Part shown: positions 20,148 to 30,869 of the stretch, one piece after another | How the letters are laid out: the number at the start of each line of letters is the position of its first letter | Numbering within the stretch: the stretch's first letter is position 1 | Assembly: GCA_014896535.1 (NCBI GenBank) | Contig: JADBKE010000007.1 | Coordinates: forward strand, 194,571-258,570 | DNA from: Candidatus Fermentithermobacillaceae bacterium | GTDB taxonomy: Bacteria > Bacillota > Sulfobacillia > Fermentithermobacillales > DUSS01 | Length of the DNA: 64,000 nt | Direction: 5' to 3' | The notes under the pieces: generated by a model | The model's database searches: none | What the model was told of the DNA's origin: nothing | Seen by the model: only the letters and a program-made list of their open reading frames with translations | Translations under genes and position numbers: made by a program

Positions 20148-21301
20148 CTAGAACCCGCAGAGCCGACCGAAGATCCCAACGAAATCGCAGCGCCGCGCCA
20201 ACTCCCGGTTCAGACGCTCCAGAACGTTGGTGGAGTGTATCGGGCGCCGGTGTTCGTCCGGGAACGCCATGTAGGTCAGCAGTTCGTCGGCAGCATCCTC
20301 CAGCATGGTGGCTACCTGCGGAAACCGGCGCTCAAGGCTTCTTGCCACCCGCTCTAACTGCTGCCGGGCTGATGCCTGGTCCGGCTGCGCGAATATGGTT
20401 CGAACGAGTCCTGCCACCGTCGACTGTGCGTGCTTCGGTAGTTGCGTGAGCAGGTTGCGCATGAAATGTACCCTGCACCGTTGCCAACTTGCTCCTGAAA
20501 GCACTTCGCTGATGGCACGTTTTAGCCCCTCGTGCGCATCGGAGGTGACTAACTTCACCCCCTTTAAACCTCGAGATACAAGACCCCTCAGGAACTCCAG
20601 CCAGAACTCGTAGGTCTCGGCCGCCCCCACATCAAACCCCAGCACTTCCCGCTCTCCTATTTCCCGGAGTCCGACAGCAATGACGGCAGATACATTCACC
20701 ACACGGTGATCCATGCGTGCCTTGGGCGCCTTCGCGTCCAGCCATACGTACGGGTGTCCTCCTTCAAGAGGACGGGTTCGGATCGTTCCATGCGCTCATC
20801 CAACTCAGCGCAGATGCGGGATACCTCACTCTTGCTTATGCCCTCCAATCCGAGCGCTTTTACGAGTTCATCAACCTTTCTCGTGCTGACCCCATGTACG
20901 TAAGCCTCCTGTACAACGGCCAGAAGTGCCCGTTCAGCCCTCCTGCGGGGTTCCAGCAGACTGGGAAAGTAACTGCCTTTCCTCAGCCGCGGTATCCGCA
21001 ATTCGATGGAGCCCACCCTCGTATCCCACAGGCGTGCGCGGTACCCATTGCGGTGCGTTCTGCGGCTGGAAGAACGTTCGTAACGTTGCGCTCCGACCTT
21101 TTCGCTGACTTCCAACTCCATCAGCTGCCGCGCAAGCCAGCGAAGGCCCTCCTTCAGGGCATCTACCTCAGGCTCTCCCTGATACTTACGCAAAAGTTCC
21201 AGTAATGCTATCCTAAAATCTGGGGTCACTGGTGAATCACTCTCCTTCGTCACGGTTCTTTTCCAACCTGAAGGAAAGGCACCAGTGACCTCTCTCGTCA
21301 A
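20148..21301 (-). pseudogene. IS256 (Mutator) family transposase, frameshifted and 3' truncated
   Basis: N-part 20696-21301 (RRTHRNGYRARLWDTRVGSIELRIPRLRKGSYFPS..GISKSEVSRICAELD) and C-part 20148-20714 (DAHEGLKRAISEVLSGASWQRCRVHFMRNLL..HSTNVLERLNRELARR) in different frames. Confidence 0.9.
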
Positions 21302-22797: not shown

Positions 22798-22826
22798 CGT
22801 AATCGTTGCAGAAGGAGGTGATCAAA

Positions 22827-22955
22827 GTGAAGAAATGGGAAAAGCCGGAGGTCCTAGCTAGCTTTACGGAAGAGGAGCTTTTGCGCTTTCAGGCGGACCT
22901 ACCGGTGGTGGGCTGGGCAGAATGGTCATATTCCAGCAAGCCTAAGCCACAATAG
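22827..22955 (+). CDS. Putative RiPP precursor peptide, 42 aa (not in supplied ORF track)
   Basis: GTG start after strong RBS (GAAGGAGGTGATCAAAGTG); MKKWEKPEVLASFTEEELLRFQADLPVVGWAEWSYSSKPKPQ; between SPASM enzyme and PqqD gene. Confidence 0.8.
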   Translation: MKKWEKPEVLASFTEEELLRFQADLPVVGWAEWSYSSKPKPQ

Positions 22956-22964
22956 AATCTGACC

Positions 22965-22994
22965 TGGCCCAAGGGGATCCCCCCCCTTGGGCCA
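22965..22994 (+). terminator. Strong stem-loop after putative precursor gene (attenuator or mRNA-stabilising hairpin; no U-tract)
   Basis: TGGCCCAAGGGG-ATCC-CCCCCCTTGGGCCA inverted repeat directly downstream of the 42-aa ORF. Confidence 0.65.
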
Positions 22995-24292: not shown

Positions 24293-25102
24293 ATGCGAGC
24301 GCACACATGCAGTTTCGCCACTGCCGATGAGAAAGGCTGTCTGACAGTATCGTTCAACCCCGCCACAGGGTCTGGCGGGGTCGCGCTACGGGTTCCCGAG
24401 CGGTTTCTCGACGAGATCGGTTCTTACATCCCTCAACGGAGGGAAGATGATGGTTCTGGTATCTGGACTTATGGCGAATATGTCCATACTTACATGGTAA
24501 TCGAAAGGCAACGCATTGTGCCATACCCACCCCCTATCGTCTCCAGTTGGGAGGATATTAGAGCAGTATTCATGACTTACAGGTCGAGACTTTTGGTTGT
24601 CACAGGTGCAGGGATATCTGTAGCTGCGGGAATATGGTCCACGGAGGATCTGTATCGAGTTCTGTACCTCCGGTCACTACGTGAGGCTGTCCAGGCAGTT
24701 GTCGAACACCCCCATCAGTTGCTCCAACGATTCCGCCTGTTCGTAATCCAGCTATATTGCAGAAAACCAACAGCAGCACACTGGGCTTTGAAGACGCTTC
24801 GGGACCGATTCGGGTTCACGATTGCAACGGAGAATCGCGATGACCTGCACCAGAAGACGGGTGTACACCCGGTCACCAGGGACGAGATTCCAGCGCTTGA
24901 CACGACGCGCTATTCGGCTCTGTTGATGGTTGGTATTAGCGAAGACCGGTTCTCGCTGATCCCGCAATTTCGCGAACGTGGTTGTGAAGTACATTGTTTG
25001 GCCAAAACGCCATGTCCGGGGGTGACGCATTTCAGAGAGGCAGACTGTCAGATAGAGCTTCCGTGGGTGGTGGACTCACTACCAACTACTAGGGAGTCTT
25101 GA
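24293..25102 (+). CDS. Sirtuin (SIR2)-like protein lacking Zn-binding module
   Basis: LLVVTGAGISVAAGI..PTAAHWALKTLRDRFGFTIATENRDDLHQKTG..YSALLMVGIS; ATG at 24293 after GGAGGTG RBS. Confidence 0.7.
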   Translation: MRAHTCSFATADEKGCLTVSFNPATGSGGVALRVPERFLDEIGSYIPQRREDDGSGIWTYGEYVHTYMVIERQRIVPYPPPIVSSWEDIRAVFMTYRSRLLVVTGAGISVAAGIWSTEDLYRVLYLRSLREAVQAVVEHPHQLLQRFRLFVIQLYCRKPTAAHWALKTLRDRFGFTIATENRDDLHQKTGVHPVTRDEIPALDTTRYSALLMVGISEDRFSLIPQFRERGCEVHCLAKTPCPGVTHFREADCQIELPWVVDSLPTTRES

Positions 25103-25278: not shown

Positions 25279-25881
25279 ATGGATCCCAAGAGAGAGGTAG
25301 GATTTTCCGAGGGTGTCCCGGTGCATTCTGAGGTCGGAAACGGAATCGGTCCGGACCGTGCAGAAGTAGCTCGCCTGCTTCACACTTGTGGAACGCCCGT
25401 ATTGGATCTGGGCAGCGGTTCAGGAGAGATGGCTGAGGCCATTGCCCTTGGTGGGCACGAGGTGGTCGGGATAGACAAATCGCCTAAGGCAATTGCTATC
25501 GCACGTGCGCGTGTTCAGCTACCGAACGCTAAGTTTATCCAGGCCGATGGGACAAATCTCCCGTTCGAGGAATGCTCGTTTGCCGGAGCTGTCTGCTACC
25601 TTTCACTACATCACTTCCGTAACCCGTTCTCGGCCCTAGATGAAGTATTAAGAGTACTACGCCCCGGCGGCATGTTTATCATCGTGGAGTATCATGACTT
25701 CCTGCGAAGGCTGCTTTATGCAATAGGCGCCTGCAGTACCAGGTTTCAGGCACATCCATTAGGCGGCTTTTCGATAAGCAGCTTGCTTTTGGAGGTATAT
25801 AGGCGATTTGACGTGCAGAGGGTAGTTCACTACCCGATGCTGGCTATGCTAGTGTCCAGAAAGCCTGATTGCTGTCTGTAG
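25279..25881 (+). CDS. Class I SAM-dependent methyltransferase
   Basis: TPVLDLGSGSGEMAEAIALGGHEVVGIDKSPKAIAIAR..FAGAVCYLSLHHF..EVLRVLRPGG. Confidence 0.92.
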   Translation: MDPKREVGFSEGVPVHSEVGNGIGPDRAEVARLLHTCGTPVLDLGSGSGEMAEAIALGGHEVVGIDKSPKAIAIARARVQLPNAKFIQADGTNLPFEECSFAGAVCYLSLHHFRNPFSALDEVLRVLRPGGMFIIVEYHDFLRRLLYAIGACSTRFQAHPLGGFSISSLLLEVYRRFDVQRVVHYPMLAMLVSRKPDCCL

Positions 25882-26870
25882 GAGGTGCCAGGTGGATGGC
25901 GGTTGAGATGGGTAGCGGGCATCCGGTGATCGTAACAGAATCCCTTACAAAGGTTTTCGGAAAGAGGACGGTCGTGGACCGCATCGATCTCTCGGTATCT
26001 CCCGGTGAGGTATTCGGTTTCCTCGGACCCAACGGTGCGGGTAAAACTACGACTATCAGAATGCTGACGACCGTTATCCCTCCGACCTCAGGCAACGCCT
26101 GGGTGAACGGGCATTCCATCAGGGAAGATCCCCTTTCCGTGCGAAAGAGCTTCGCCGTCATCCCCCAGGGACACGTAATCGAACTTCATCTCGACGTCTA
26201 TCAGAACATCCGACTGTATCTCATGTTTCACGGGTACAGCGCAAAAGAAGCCGCACGAAGAACCGATGAGGCCATCGAAAGGTTTGGTTTGCATAGTTTG
26301 CGCCACCACCGGGCCGACCAGCTTTCGGGAGGCCAGATCAGACGAGTTCAGGTGGCAAGAGCACTGTTTGTGGAAAAGCCTATCCTCTTTTTAGACGAGC
26401 CGACGACAGGGCTGGATCCGCTCGTCAAGAAAGAGACGTGGGAGCGGATTCGGCAGATTCGAGACAGCGGAACGACGATCTTTCTCACCACCCAATCCAT
26501 GGAGGAAGCAGAGGCCCTCTGCACGTCGGTGGCGTTGATATTCAACGGGAAGATAGTTGTCCAGAAATCGGTCGAGGAACTCAAGAGACTGGTCGGGGTG
26601 ACAAGGGTTGAGATCGGGGTCAGGGAGTTGCCTGGTGAGGAGATTCCGTTCGTACTCGGGGACTGGCGCGGTCTGCCGGGGGTCCTCGCCGCTTCGATGA
26701 ACGCCTCTACGCTTACGGCTGTCGTTGAAGGGAGTGAGCCGCCGGTGGCGGCCATGATAGCGGCGGTTTACCGGCATGGGGGCAGCATCACCGCCGTTAA
26801 CATAGAGCGTCCTACCCTCGAGCAAGTGTACTTGAGGATCATCAAAGGCGAGTGGAAGGAGGTCAAGTGA
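25869..26870 (+). CDS. ABC transporter ATP-binding protein (drug-resistance type)
   Basis: GFLGPNGAGKTTTIRML..LSGGQIRRVQVARALF..LFLDEPTTGLD. Confidence 0.96.
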   Translation: MLSVGGARWMAVEMGSGHPVIVTESLTKVFGKRTVVDRIDLSVSPGEVFGFLGPNGAGKTTTIRMLTTVIPPTSGNAWVNGHSIREDPLSVRKSFAVIPQGHVIELHLDVYQNIRLYLMFHGYSAKEAARRTDEAIERFGLHSLRHHRADQLSGGQIRRVQVARALFVEKPILFLDEPTTGLDPLVKKETWERIRQIRDSGTTIFLTTQSMEEAEALCTSVALIFNGKIVVQKSVEELKRLVGVTRVEIGVRELPGEEIPFVLGDWRGLPGVLAASMNASTLTAVVEGSEPPVAAMIAAVYRHGGSITAVNIERPTLEQVYLRIIKGEWKEVK

Positions 26871-27629
26871 ATGTGGGACGTGGTTGTGTGCTTGATTCGG
26901 GAGTGGCATATAGGGCTCAAGACGCCCAGGAACATATTGATTCAACTCATCTATCCCTTCATGTACCTCACGATTTTCGCTCCCACGATGGCCAGGGTCA
27001 TCGGAACCGTTGAATGGATGGGACGGGCAGTACCCTACCTGACGTACGTCATCCCCGGCATCATGGCGATGAGCGCGGTCTCCATCGGAAACGCCGCGGC
27101 CATAAACATCTACATTGACAGGCTCAGCGGCGAGATGGAGATGATGTTTTCGCTTCCCATACGTAGGGTTGCCATCCTGGCTGGGTACGCTGCGAATGCG
27201 GTGATAAGGTCACTCGTAAGCAGCATCGCTTTTTTGGTGATAGCTCTCATCGTCACGCCGGAGGCGTTCACCCTGAATTTCGCGGGAATTCCGGGCGTGG
27301 TGGCGGTTATCACCCTCTCCGCCATCGCGTGGTCGATGTTCGGAGCGACCCTTGCGTTCACCATCCAGAGGCAGAGCACCTACAACCTTGTTCACAACCT
27401 GATTCAGTTGCCGATCGTTTTCACTTCTTCGATGTTCTACAATCCGTCGGAGGGGCCTGCAATTACGCGGTGGTTGGGACCGGTGAACCCCCTTACGTTT
27501 GCGACGAACGCGCTTCGAGCCTACTGCGCCGGGTCTCAGGTAAGCACGTATGATCTTGTAGGACTATCTGTGTTCACCGGGCTGACGGCTCTTGCTGCTT
27601 CATGGGTAATCGAGCGCTCAAGTTATTAG
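26871..27629 (+). CDS. ABC-2 type transporter permease
   Basis: Hydrophobic ABC-2 membrane protein, adjacent to ATPase; NPLTFATNALRAY motif. Confidence 0.92.
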   Translation: MWDVVVCLIREWHIGLKTPRNILIQLIYPFMYLTIFAPTMARVIGTVEWMGRAVPYLTYVIPGIMAMSAVSIGNAAAINIYIDRLSGEMEMMFSLPIRRVAILAGYAANAVIRSLVSSIAFLVIALIVTPEAFTLNFAGIPGVVAVITLSAIAWSMFGATLAFTIQRQSTYNLVHNLIQLPIVFTSSMFYNPSEGPAITRWLGPVNPLTFATNALRAYCAGSQVSTYDLVGLSVFTGLTALAASWVIERSSY

Positions 27630-27683: not shown

Positions 27684-28049
27684 ATGAACATGGGGACCTG
27701 TTGTGGCGGGTCAGGCTCTGCGAATTTTCTCGTTTGGAGAATGCGTTCGTTACCACCGCATTCTCCTCTGCTGAGGTCTGGGCTACCTGTACCAAGTTGC
27801 GGGAGCCGACTGTATCCACATTCAGTCTCAGCAATGAATTTTATTCAAAGCTGTTCTATGTGTCGCTTACGAGATCCTACGCGAGACGACTACCCTGACT
27901 GGGTCTCGCTCAAACCGGTGAGGAGAGCGACCAAAGTTAGTTCTTCCTGTGCAGATGGGCCTGCAGAGGAATCTGGGACGCTGGTGATCAGCATCAATGA
28001 GCATCGATATCAGGAGAATTTTGCAGACTATCTGGCAAATAAGATCTGA
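27684..28049 (+). CDS. Small Cys-containing hypothetical ORF (unclear; may be degenerate)
   Basis: ATG after GGAGGGAACCCAA RBS; MNMGTCCGGSGSANFLVWRMRS..IQSCSMCRLRD; overlaps downstream peptidase ORF. Confidence 0.3.
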   Translation: MNMGTCCGGSGSANFLVWRMRSLPPHSPLLRSGLPVPSCGSRLYPHSVSAMNFIQSCSMCRLRDPTRDDYPDWVSLKPVRRATKVSSSCADGPAEESGTLVISINEHRYQENFADYLANKI

Positions 28050-28824
28050 TACGGTGCAGTTCAGGTTGCAGGGAACATGCATGCAACCCACAATGATGCC
28101 GGGCGACGTGGTTCGCGTAACCTGCGACCTGCGCAGGGTCAAAGCTGGGGAGATAGCAGTCTACGCTAACGGGCAGCGTCTTCTTGCCCATCGCGTCGTG
28201 GCCGTGGGGCGTTTCGGCATTATGACAAAGCCAGATTCAGTGGAGCACTTTGATGCACCTGTTCAATGGAACCAAGTCATTGGTGTAGTATCCAGCGCTA
28301 TTGACGGTACAGGTGTCTGCCGAGATCTAACATACCTGCCGGAAGGAACACAGCCGTTGCTGCCTGGGCCATCTGCGAATACTCTGTTAAGTTTCGTCCT
28401 GGTCGCTGGTGGCCGCGGTGTCTACGTTGGGAGCGGCTTAAGCCACCTTGTCGGACGGGCAAGCGGGAAACTCATTTCTGGTCATCAGGTCAGTATCGTT
28501 CAAGCAAGCGATTTTGAAGCCGCCGAGGGACAATTCGATTGTTTGATCTACCACATGTCGAGGAACTCACAAGGCTGGATACAAGAGGCTACAGCAGCAT
28601 GCCAGCTTCTCCGACGAGGGGGGCTTGTACTCATGGTGGGAAGCAGGAACGCGGCGAATGACGCTGTTAGATCTTTCTTGCCATTGCCAACAAATTCCCC
28701 CCAAACTTCTATAGTTCCGGTCATACTGGAAGCGTCGAATATTCCAAGGTTTTATTTGCGTCTGAATCGCGTAGTCTATTACGATAAGGAGGTACTTATT
28801 CTGGCTACAGTGGATGATGCCTAG
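27997..28824 (+). CDS. S26/S24-like signal-peptidase-fold protein with Cys in place of catalytic Ser, plus C-terminal methyltransferase-like region
   Basis: FRLQGTCMQPTMMPGDVVRVTCDLRRVKAGEIAVYANGQRLLAHRVVAV; canonical GxSMxPT is GTCMQPT; AHRVV His conserved; C-terminal QLLRRGGLVLMV. Confidence 0.72.
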   Translation: MSIDIRRILQTIWQIRSDTVQFRLQGTCMQPTMMPGDVVRVTCDLRRVKAGEIAVYANGQRLLAHRVVAVGRFGIMTKPDSVEHFDAPVQWNQVIGVVSSAIDGTGVCRDLTYLPEGTQPLLPGPSANTLLSFVLVAGGRGVYVGSGLSHLVGRASGKLISGHQVSIVQASDFEAAEGQFDCLIYHMSRNSQGWIQEATAACQLLRRGGLVLMVGSRNAANDAVRSFLPLPTNSPQTSIVPVILEASNIPRFYLRLNRVVYYDKEVLILATVDDA

Positions 28825-29261: not shown

Positions 29262-30869
29262 GTAAGCGTCAAATAGCTCCCACCTTGTAGGGGACGATAT
29301 CGAGGGACCTGATTGGTTTGCTCGGGTGGGGTTGCTAGCCGTCCTTGCGGACACCTCAGGTGTCAGGCAGAGAAGGTGACCACGGAAGCAGCTCGTCGAG
29401 GTCCCCGTTCCCGAGGTTCGGGAACCTCTCGAAAAGATAGCGGAGATACTCGAACGGTATGAGCCCGTTCTCCTTGGCCGTCTCCACGATACTGTATACA
29501 ACCGCGCTGGCCCTGGCTCCCTTAGGAGTGTTGCAGAACAGCCACCCCTTCCGGCCAATCACGAAAGGCTTGATCGAACGCTCGCAGCGGTTGTTGTCGA
29601 TCTCAAGCCTTCCGTCCCGAAGGAAGTTCTGAAGTTTGTCCCGCTGGCTCCGGCAGTACCTTATGGCCTGCCCCAACACGCTCTGAGGAAGGACTTGGGA
29701 GGACTGCTTCTCAAGCCATTCCCAAAACTCGTTGAGCACAGGAACGCTCCTCTCGAGCCGGGCCCTGTATCTTTCCTCCGGAGTCGCTTCTGCCAACTCT
29801 CGCTCTATCTCGAAGAGCCTGTTGCAGAAACTCAACCCCTCAAGCGCGACCGTCGGCGAAGCGCGCTTGTCCGGAGGCAGTACCTTCAGTGCCTCATCGA
29901 ACTTCCGTCGCGCGTGAGCCCAGCATCCCACAAGGATGACATCAGGCAACTGGTCGTAACCAGAATAGCCGTCCGTGTGCAGATAACCCTTGAACCCCGA
30001 AAGGAACTTCTTCGGGTGTTTTCCAGCACGGGTGGTCTTGTAGTCGAAGAGCACGATGGGCAGACCATGTCTTCCGGTACGGTAACACCACATGTAAGAC
30101 TGGGTCTCGGCCGGACGACCGTCTTCGTGCAACACCTGCACCGTGGTCTCGTCCGAGTGCAGGATGTCGTGCTTCAGGAGTTCCTGGTGCAGTCTTTCGT
30201 AGAGGGGTTCCAGCCACCTCTCCGCCGCGTACACCACCCAGTTAGCCATGGTCTGCCGGGAAAGCTCAACCCCCAGGCGTGACCACTGCTGCTCCTGACG
30301 GTAGAGGGGCAGGCCGTTCACGTACTTTTCGTTCATGATGTACGCAACTGCGGAAGGAGAAGCCAGGCTTCCTGGGATCACCGGTGACGGTGCCGGCGCT
30401 GTTATCACCGGAGTGCTCGTCCCCTCGCGCTCACACCTGCGGCAGGAGTAAACGTACCGCACGTGCTTGACCAGTTTGACCTGCGCCGGGATGACCTTCA
30501 GTTCCTGGCGGACCTCGGTGCTCATCTCGTGCAGCCGGCCGCCGCAGTTGGGGCACACCTGCTCTTCCGGAGGCAGCCGGTATTCGATCGTCTCCACCGG
30601 CAGCCACTTCGTTGAGCCCGATTCGTCTTCCGTCCTGAAGCGCCGCAGCCAGTACCACAGCCGGTCTGGCTTTACCCCGCGGGACGCGCACCATTCCCTA
30701 GCGCTAAGGCCGCTGGCTATGTACTGCGCTATCCACTGCTGCCACTGCTGGCGCCGTGCCTGCTGTTCAGCCTTGGTCATCGCAGAAAGCCTCCCCGATT
30801 CACGCAAGTTCGGGGAGATTATGCTTCAGTCAGCAGCACAAGGCCAGGTGGGGGCTATTTGACGCTTAC
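29262..30869 (-). mobile_element. IS66 family insertion sequence, apparently complete
   Basis: Terminal inverted repeats GTAAGCGTCAAATAGCTCCCACCTT (left) and RC of CAGGTGGGGGCTATTTGACGCTTAC (right) around transposase ORF. Confidence 0.88.
29356..30807 (-). CDS. IS66 family transposase (with N-terminal TnpA-like helix-turn-helix)
   Basis: [88 protein letters not shown]. Confidence 0.95.

Follow-up and report, generated by a model that had tools for sequence, protein, structure and literature searches.

The window (the whole 64,000-nucleotide stretch of DNA analysed here) holds a 42-residue gene that ordinary gene finding missed, lying between the genes for a radical SAM/SPASM enzyme and a PqqD-type protein. 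Is this gene a RiPP precursor, and what would the enzymes around it do to its product? Direct reading gave the product as MKKWEKPEVLASFTEEELLRFQADLPVVGWAEWSYSSKPKPQ, in exact agreement with the coordinates, sequence and GTG start reported in a preliminary description of this DNA. The near-perfect ribosome-binding site claimed there was also found: it reads AAGGAGGTGATC, complementary to the usual 3′ end of 16S rRNA, and its GGAGG is 8 nt away from the GTG codon. Starting instead at the TTG at 22806 would lengthen the product to 49 aa, and the GTG was preferred because it is the start that the ribosome-binding site favours. As described, the reading frame follows the SPASM gene and precedes pqqD, at distances of 29 nt and 65 nt, respectively. 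Profile searches showed no convincing protein-family match for the peptide, and all of the cluster genes listed in Table 1 are on the + strand.

Table 1. The peptide gene and its neighbours, with positions in the window.
Feature	Position	Strand	Details
Radical SAM/SPASM peptide maturase, 411 aa	21562..22797	+	CxxxCxxC (CNLRCSYC) and SPASM cysteines; PF04055 E 2.4e-21, PF13186 E 2e-8
Ribosome-binding site of peptide gene	22812..22823	+	sequence read directly
Precursor peptide gene, 42 aa	22827..22955	+	GTG at 22827, stop ends at 22955; leader W4xxP7xV9L10, core W30-x-x-W33-S34-Y35-S36-S37, Lys/Pro tail; four G454 homologues
G+C-rich stem between peptide gene and pqqD	22966..22993	+	strong, −34.6 kcal/mol, z −2.6; without T run
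PqqD-type discrete RiPP recognition element, 92 aa	23021..23299	+	PF05402 E 3.7e-13
Second radical SAM enzyme, 331 aa	23296..24291	+	best match HxsC; PF04055 E 3.6e-14; TIGR03977 98.5 bits, cut-off 267.9
Compact SIR2-like protein	24293..25102	+	TGAGxS, TENxDxLHQKT; PF02146 E 1.1e-5; also in G454
SAM-dependent methyltransferase, 200 aa (putative role)	25279..25881	+	PF08241 E 6.4e-24
ABC exporter ATPase, DrrA-like	25869..26870	+	TIGR01188 262.7 bits, under cut-off 312; PF00005
ABC-2 exporter permease, DrrB-like	26871..27629	+	PF01061 E 4.7e-15; TIGR01247 E 2.5e-22
Signal-peptidase-like N-terminal domain, candidate leader peptidase	27997..28824	+	TIGR02228 (archaeal-type signal peptidase) E 7e-7, weak at 29 bits, under cut-off 52

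A second locus and a family of five peptides

A search of 399 genomes of the phylum for the SPASM enzyme revealed one clear relative (34% identity, E 8e-64; next best 2e-36), in a genome, G454, of the same phylum and a different class; further draws from the phylum again gave G454 only. In a tree in which many of the other rows were partial, the two enzymes were sisters (support 95/85), and the radical SAM and SPASM cysteines are common to both. The G454 neighbourhood (L036) encodes, in order, a HAD hydrolase, the SPASM enzyme, a peptide (MYTTPSILTTYSAKSEHAVKPIDDWGLWSKSS), a PqqD protein 20% identical to that of the window, a xylose-isomerase-like TIM barrel protein and a SIR2-like protein, and three further peptide genes lie downstream (MYTSPSILATYPESQYNGSKGVGGDWGLWSKSSPSEPIEK, MYTSPSVLATYPENQYNGSKDVGGDWGLWSKSSPGVPDNPTK and MYTSPSILATYPENQYNGIKEIGGDWGLWSKSSPDYPIDPVHPVQPVQP). 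The order SPASM–peptide–PqqD–(variable gene)–SIR2-like is thus common to both loci. The variable gene is the second radical SAM enzyme in the window, which is absent from the G454 cluster; there the TIM barrel gene (L036:10272-11024) takes its place, and its start overlaps the end of the PqqD gene. The three downstream precursor genes (L036:12086-12947) form tandem units of ~350 bp, each with its own ribosome-binding site and the first with a strong hairpin on its 3′ side; their cores are identical and their proline-rich tails different. The first G454 peptide gene also has a strong RNA stem on its 3′ side, before pqqD (−28.8 kcal/mol, z −6.1). As the corresponding stem in the window lacks a T run, a role in attenuation or RNA protection would be a guess.

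When the five peptides were aligned, M1, P7, L10, W30, W33, S34, S36 and S37 (window numbering) were invariant, position 4 was Trp or Tyr and position 9 Val or Ile. The shared core is W-x-x-W-S-[Y/K]-S-S, in which the spacer between the Trp residues is AE (window) or GL, residue 32 varies between E and L, and Tyr35 of the window peptide is Lys in G454. The aromatic C-terminal core proposed in the preliminary description is therefore strongly supported by the homologues, with both Trp residues retained. The longer string suggested there as a possible invariant, W-A-E-W-S-Y-x-x-K, did not hold, since only W30, W33, S34, S36 and S37 are kept in the core; the three conserved serines had not been pointed out there.

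The mean alignment score of the window peptide against three G454 peptides was 46, compared with 22.5 ± 3.9 for shuffles, about 6 standard deviations lower, and none of 5000 shuffles reached 46; by this score it ranked first among the 443 small reading frames of the window. A profile built from the four G454 peptides alone placed it second of 1743 frames with an E value of 0.47, which is not significant, and the case for a precursor therefore needs sequence together with conserved position. The codons of the G454 cores were also informative. Each downstream copy departs from the first at 10–11 of its 27 core nucleotides, always synonymously and with TCT to AGT changes among the serine codons, a pattern that random draws of substitutions reached in 0 of 200000 trials. 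The peptide profile run across the 399 genomes found exactly one peptide in the window's own genome and four in G454, with nothing convincing in the remainder, so that the family is known from two independent loci. Matches elsewhere at E 0.01–0.1 were set aside as noise, the one with the best-looking leader (L075) being antisense to an ABC transporter gene, and W..WS.SS strings in L079 and L084 were taken as stray frames. A back-translation search for close relatives in genome contigs found none, and a scan of viral contigs, for which alignments of SPASM and SIR2 proteins served as queries, yielded nothing of use.

Based on the same-order locus in G454, the shared leader and core motifs and the all-synonymous changes in the core codons, we are nearly certain that 22827-22955 is a RiPP precursor gene, as first proposed; the suggested search for homologous small reading frames beside related SPASM enzymes yielded four, in the same place. 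A chance reading frame would fit the shortness of the gene and its lack of a convincing family match. It is contradicted by the conserved position, the motifs, the ribosome-binding site and the synonymous codon changes in the homologues, and we give it a negligible probability. An unannotated reading frame thus becomes a precursor family of five sequences that share a fixed motif and are accompanied by a conserved set of enzymes, so that the chemistry is directly testable.

Predicted leader recognition and cleavage

The leader of all five peptides contains [Y/W]xxPx[V/I]L. Discrete recognition elements of lasso and linear polyphosphorylated peptide (LPP) pathways bind [Y/W]xxPx[L/V/I/A/F/Y] (PMC13381572), which is matched by W4-E-K-P7-E-V9 in the window and by Y-T-[ST]-P-S-[IV] in G454. 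The KKWEKPEV segment, at first likened to short RiPP leaders in general, can thus be placed more precisely as W4-x-x-P7-x-V9-L10 of the published motif. The sole PDB match of the PqqD protein was the lasso recognition element TbiB1, at a weak E value of 0.032. We suggest that the PqqD protein would grip the leader through these residues and present the core.

Leader motif and discrete recognition element are both features of Bacillota LPP and lasso pathways, and a signal-peptidase-like protein in the cluster is a further likeness to LPP. In the LPP clusters of Bacillota an archaeal-type signal peptidase, LppS, is the leader peptidase and depends on the recognition element (PMC13381572). The protein encoded at 27997-28824 contains GTCMQPT...GD and HRV motifs, and, as read from the sequence, Cys stands where signal peptidases have Ser and could serve as the nucleophile. 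By analogy to LppS it is a candidate leader peptidase and would remove the leader. Its C-terminal half, ~170 aa fused to the peptidase-like domain, has no family match. The cluster differs from LPP and lasso pathways in having radical SAM enzymes instead of an HprK kinase or a lasso cyclase, and among the cluster genes scanned we found neither a macrolactam cyclase nor a B2 cysteine peptidase of the lasso type.

The SPASM enzyme and the tryptophan core

The arrangement of radical SAM RiPPs, in which a short precursor lies beside a SPASM radical SAM enzyme, is present here and recurs at both loci. When the SPASM enzyme was compared with named families, the best NCBIfam match was TIGR04163 (CbpB; 159 bits against a cut-off of 375), followed by the anaerobic sulfatase maturases (144 against 349). 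The remaining scores and cut-offs in bits were 141/340 for PapB, 132/370 for HxsB, 130/450 for DynA and 105/650 for DarE, and, for the triceptide families, 115/425 for AmcB, 111/310 for GrrM and 98/445 for YhhB. None of the named SPASM families, including all of the cyclophane-forming ones listed, reached its curated cut-off, and the nearest solved structure was an anaerobic sulfatase maturase. The sequence of the enzyme therefore does not fix the chemistry, which we argue from the substrate.

Two systems suggested by these scores fit poorly. The SPASM enzyme has CbpB as its best family and is 28% identical to a plasmid CbpB, but membership of the CbpA/CbpB system was rejected on the distance from the cut-off, and the CbpA beside that plasmid enzyme lacks the WxxWS motif. 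The pairing of a SPASM enzyme that scores like HxsB with another radical SAM enzyme that scores like HxsC recalls the His-Xaa-Ser system; however, both scores are under their cut-offs (131.8/370 and 98.5/267.9 bits) and the peptide has neither His nor an HxS repeat.

What the substrate offers is two invariant Trp residues, each with a variable residue two positions later. Bonds through Cys are excluded because none of the five peptides contains one. This extends to the whole family the earlier argument against thioether chemistry, for which sactipeptides and ranthipeptides require Cys in the core. Judging from these residues, radical cross-linking at the Trp residues is the probable action of the SPASM enzyme. 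The indole rings of W30 and W33 would be tied to nearby residues, which would close one or two rings, small and strained. The bond from W33 would most likely go to residue 35 (i to i+2; W-S-Y in the window, W-S-K in G454), and that from W30 to residue 32 (i+2) or to W33 (i+3). Precedents exist for both distances, in the i/i+2 Trp-C-beta rings of triceptides and the Trp-to-i+3 bond of dynobactin (PMC11002830). Of the sites first listed as WAE, WSY and W..K, the two Trp residues stood as invariant positions, whereas G454 has Lys in the place of Tyr35. A Trp–Lys bond was rejected as a common site because the distance from W33 to Lys differs (+5 in the window, +2 in G454).

The core can be compared with three known groups. 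In darobactin, WNWSKSF, the second Trp carries the bond to Lys (PMC9055067). The WSKS of the G454 core occurs in this sequence, and the window peptide has Tyr in the place of Lys. Daropeptides and dynobactin, made by DarE and DynA, thus share with this family a Trp-rich core and a SPASM enzyme, whose action here is predicted. The present core is W-x-x-W (WxxWSxSS) and not the W-x-W of WxWxKxF-type cores (PMC9055067), and it has no terminal Phe; the cluster differs from those of DarE and DynA in its SPASM scores, its separate PqqD protein and its SIR2-like protein. With triceptides it shares an aromatic residue with an i+2 partner in two adjacent Trp-x-x motifs (W30-A-E and W33-S-Y), although such motifs are common and make a weak test; unlike triceptides, its enzyme is under the GrrM/OscB, AmcB and YhhB cut-offs and its rings are predicted. 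Trp-rich radical SAM cores are also near to the chemistry of darobactin and dynobactin, which is of antibiotic interest.

The W-x-x-W spacing, with its two variable spacer residues, is the most strictly kept element of the core and would also suit a direct W30–W33 bond (i to i+3) with no bond to residue 35. A Trp–Trp C–N bond across WxxW is known from P450 RiPPs, the atropopeptides (PMC12352619), and the SPASM enzyme would have to make a ring like those of cihunamide and the atropopeptides by radical SAM chemistry. The known WxxW products are made by P450 enzymes, of which none is annotated in the cluster, and radical SAM precedents at Trp mostly attack C-beta; we consider such a bond rather improbable. 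Oxidation of serine is a serious rival because S34, S36 and S37 are invariant. According to this explanation the SPASM enzyme would oxidise or epimerise the conserved serines (formylglycine- or aminomalonate-like) and form no cross-link, and the Trp residues would serve for recognition only. It agrees with the rank of the anaerobic sulfatase maturases, enzymes that act by oxidising Ser or Cys, as second-best NCBIfam and best PDB match, but their score is typical of many SPASM enzymes, and two invariant Trp residues with no chemical role would be unusual. We judge this unlikely, and cross-linking at Trp remains the reading that we follow.

Proposed tailoring and export, and the SIR2-like partner

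After cross-linking, further changes may come from the second radical SAM enzyme, from the methyltransferase and from the NAD-type SIR2-like protein, for whose step Ser 34, 36 and 37 would be natural candidates; the ABC pair would export the cleaved product. Taken as a whole, this pathway of leader binding by PqqD, cross-linking at Trp, tailoring, cleavage and export is the explanation that we favour, with some confidence. The peptide could instead be the raw material of a small redox cofactor or signal, comparable to PQQ or mycofactocin, with nearly all of it discarded; the PqqD partner, the tailoring-type enzymes of G454 (TIM barrel and SIR2-like) and the lack of an exporter or leader peptidase beside the G454 cluster would suit this. 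The ABC exporter in the window speaks against it, and the presence of several precursors that share a core but differ in their tails better suits a secreted peptide, which leaves the cofactor reading very improbable.

The SIR2-like proteins of the window and G454 are 28% identical. NAD-site motifs and the sirtuin fold are present: a predicted model, built from an alignment of twelve relatives without a G454 row, had a pLDDT of 78.7 and matched sirtuins (Foldseek E 6e-8 to SIRT5). After LHQKT, both sequences lack the zinc-binding Cys module and the catalytic HG (His) motif, and from these motifs an ordinary deacylase seems unlikely. Both clusters retain this protein, whereas the gene before it differs (radical SAM or TIM barrel); it thus appears to be part of the core set. 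Such an unexpected constant partner, which lacks the machinery of a deacylase, suggests a step that depends on NAD. We conclude that the family is a new and rare variant among radical SAM RiPPs, defined by WxxWSxSS and the zinc-less SIR2-like partner. The bolder proposal of a new RiPP class, in which the zinc-less enzyme would use NAD on the radical SAM-cross-linked WxxWSxSS peptide, for example to ADP-ribosylate a conserved serine, is speculative and, in our estimate, doubtful. To our knowledge, ADP-ribosylation of Ser is a tailoring reaction in no RiPP, and the literature searched, with partial coverage, described no case of a Sir2 or sirtuin protein in a RiPP pathway.

A motif-pattern scan showed that the compact SIR2-like family (TENxDxLHQKTG, without the zinc module) also occurs in Holosporales, Chlamydiae and other bacteria (L043–L063). 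No SPASM relative was found in the stretches examined around these genes, and several of the proteins start with an apparent signal peptide.

The cluster has a G+C content of 0.53, compared with 0.595 in neighbouring purine genes, and two further genomes from this genus lack the SPASM gene; the cluster looks horizontally acquired. A broken Mutator-type transposase (20148-21301) flanks it on one side and a long transposase-like reading frame, IS66-like by eye (29356-30807), on the other.
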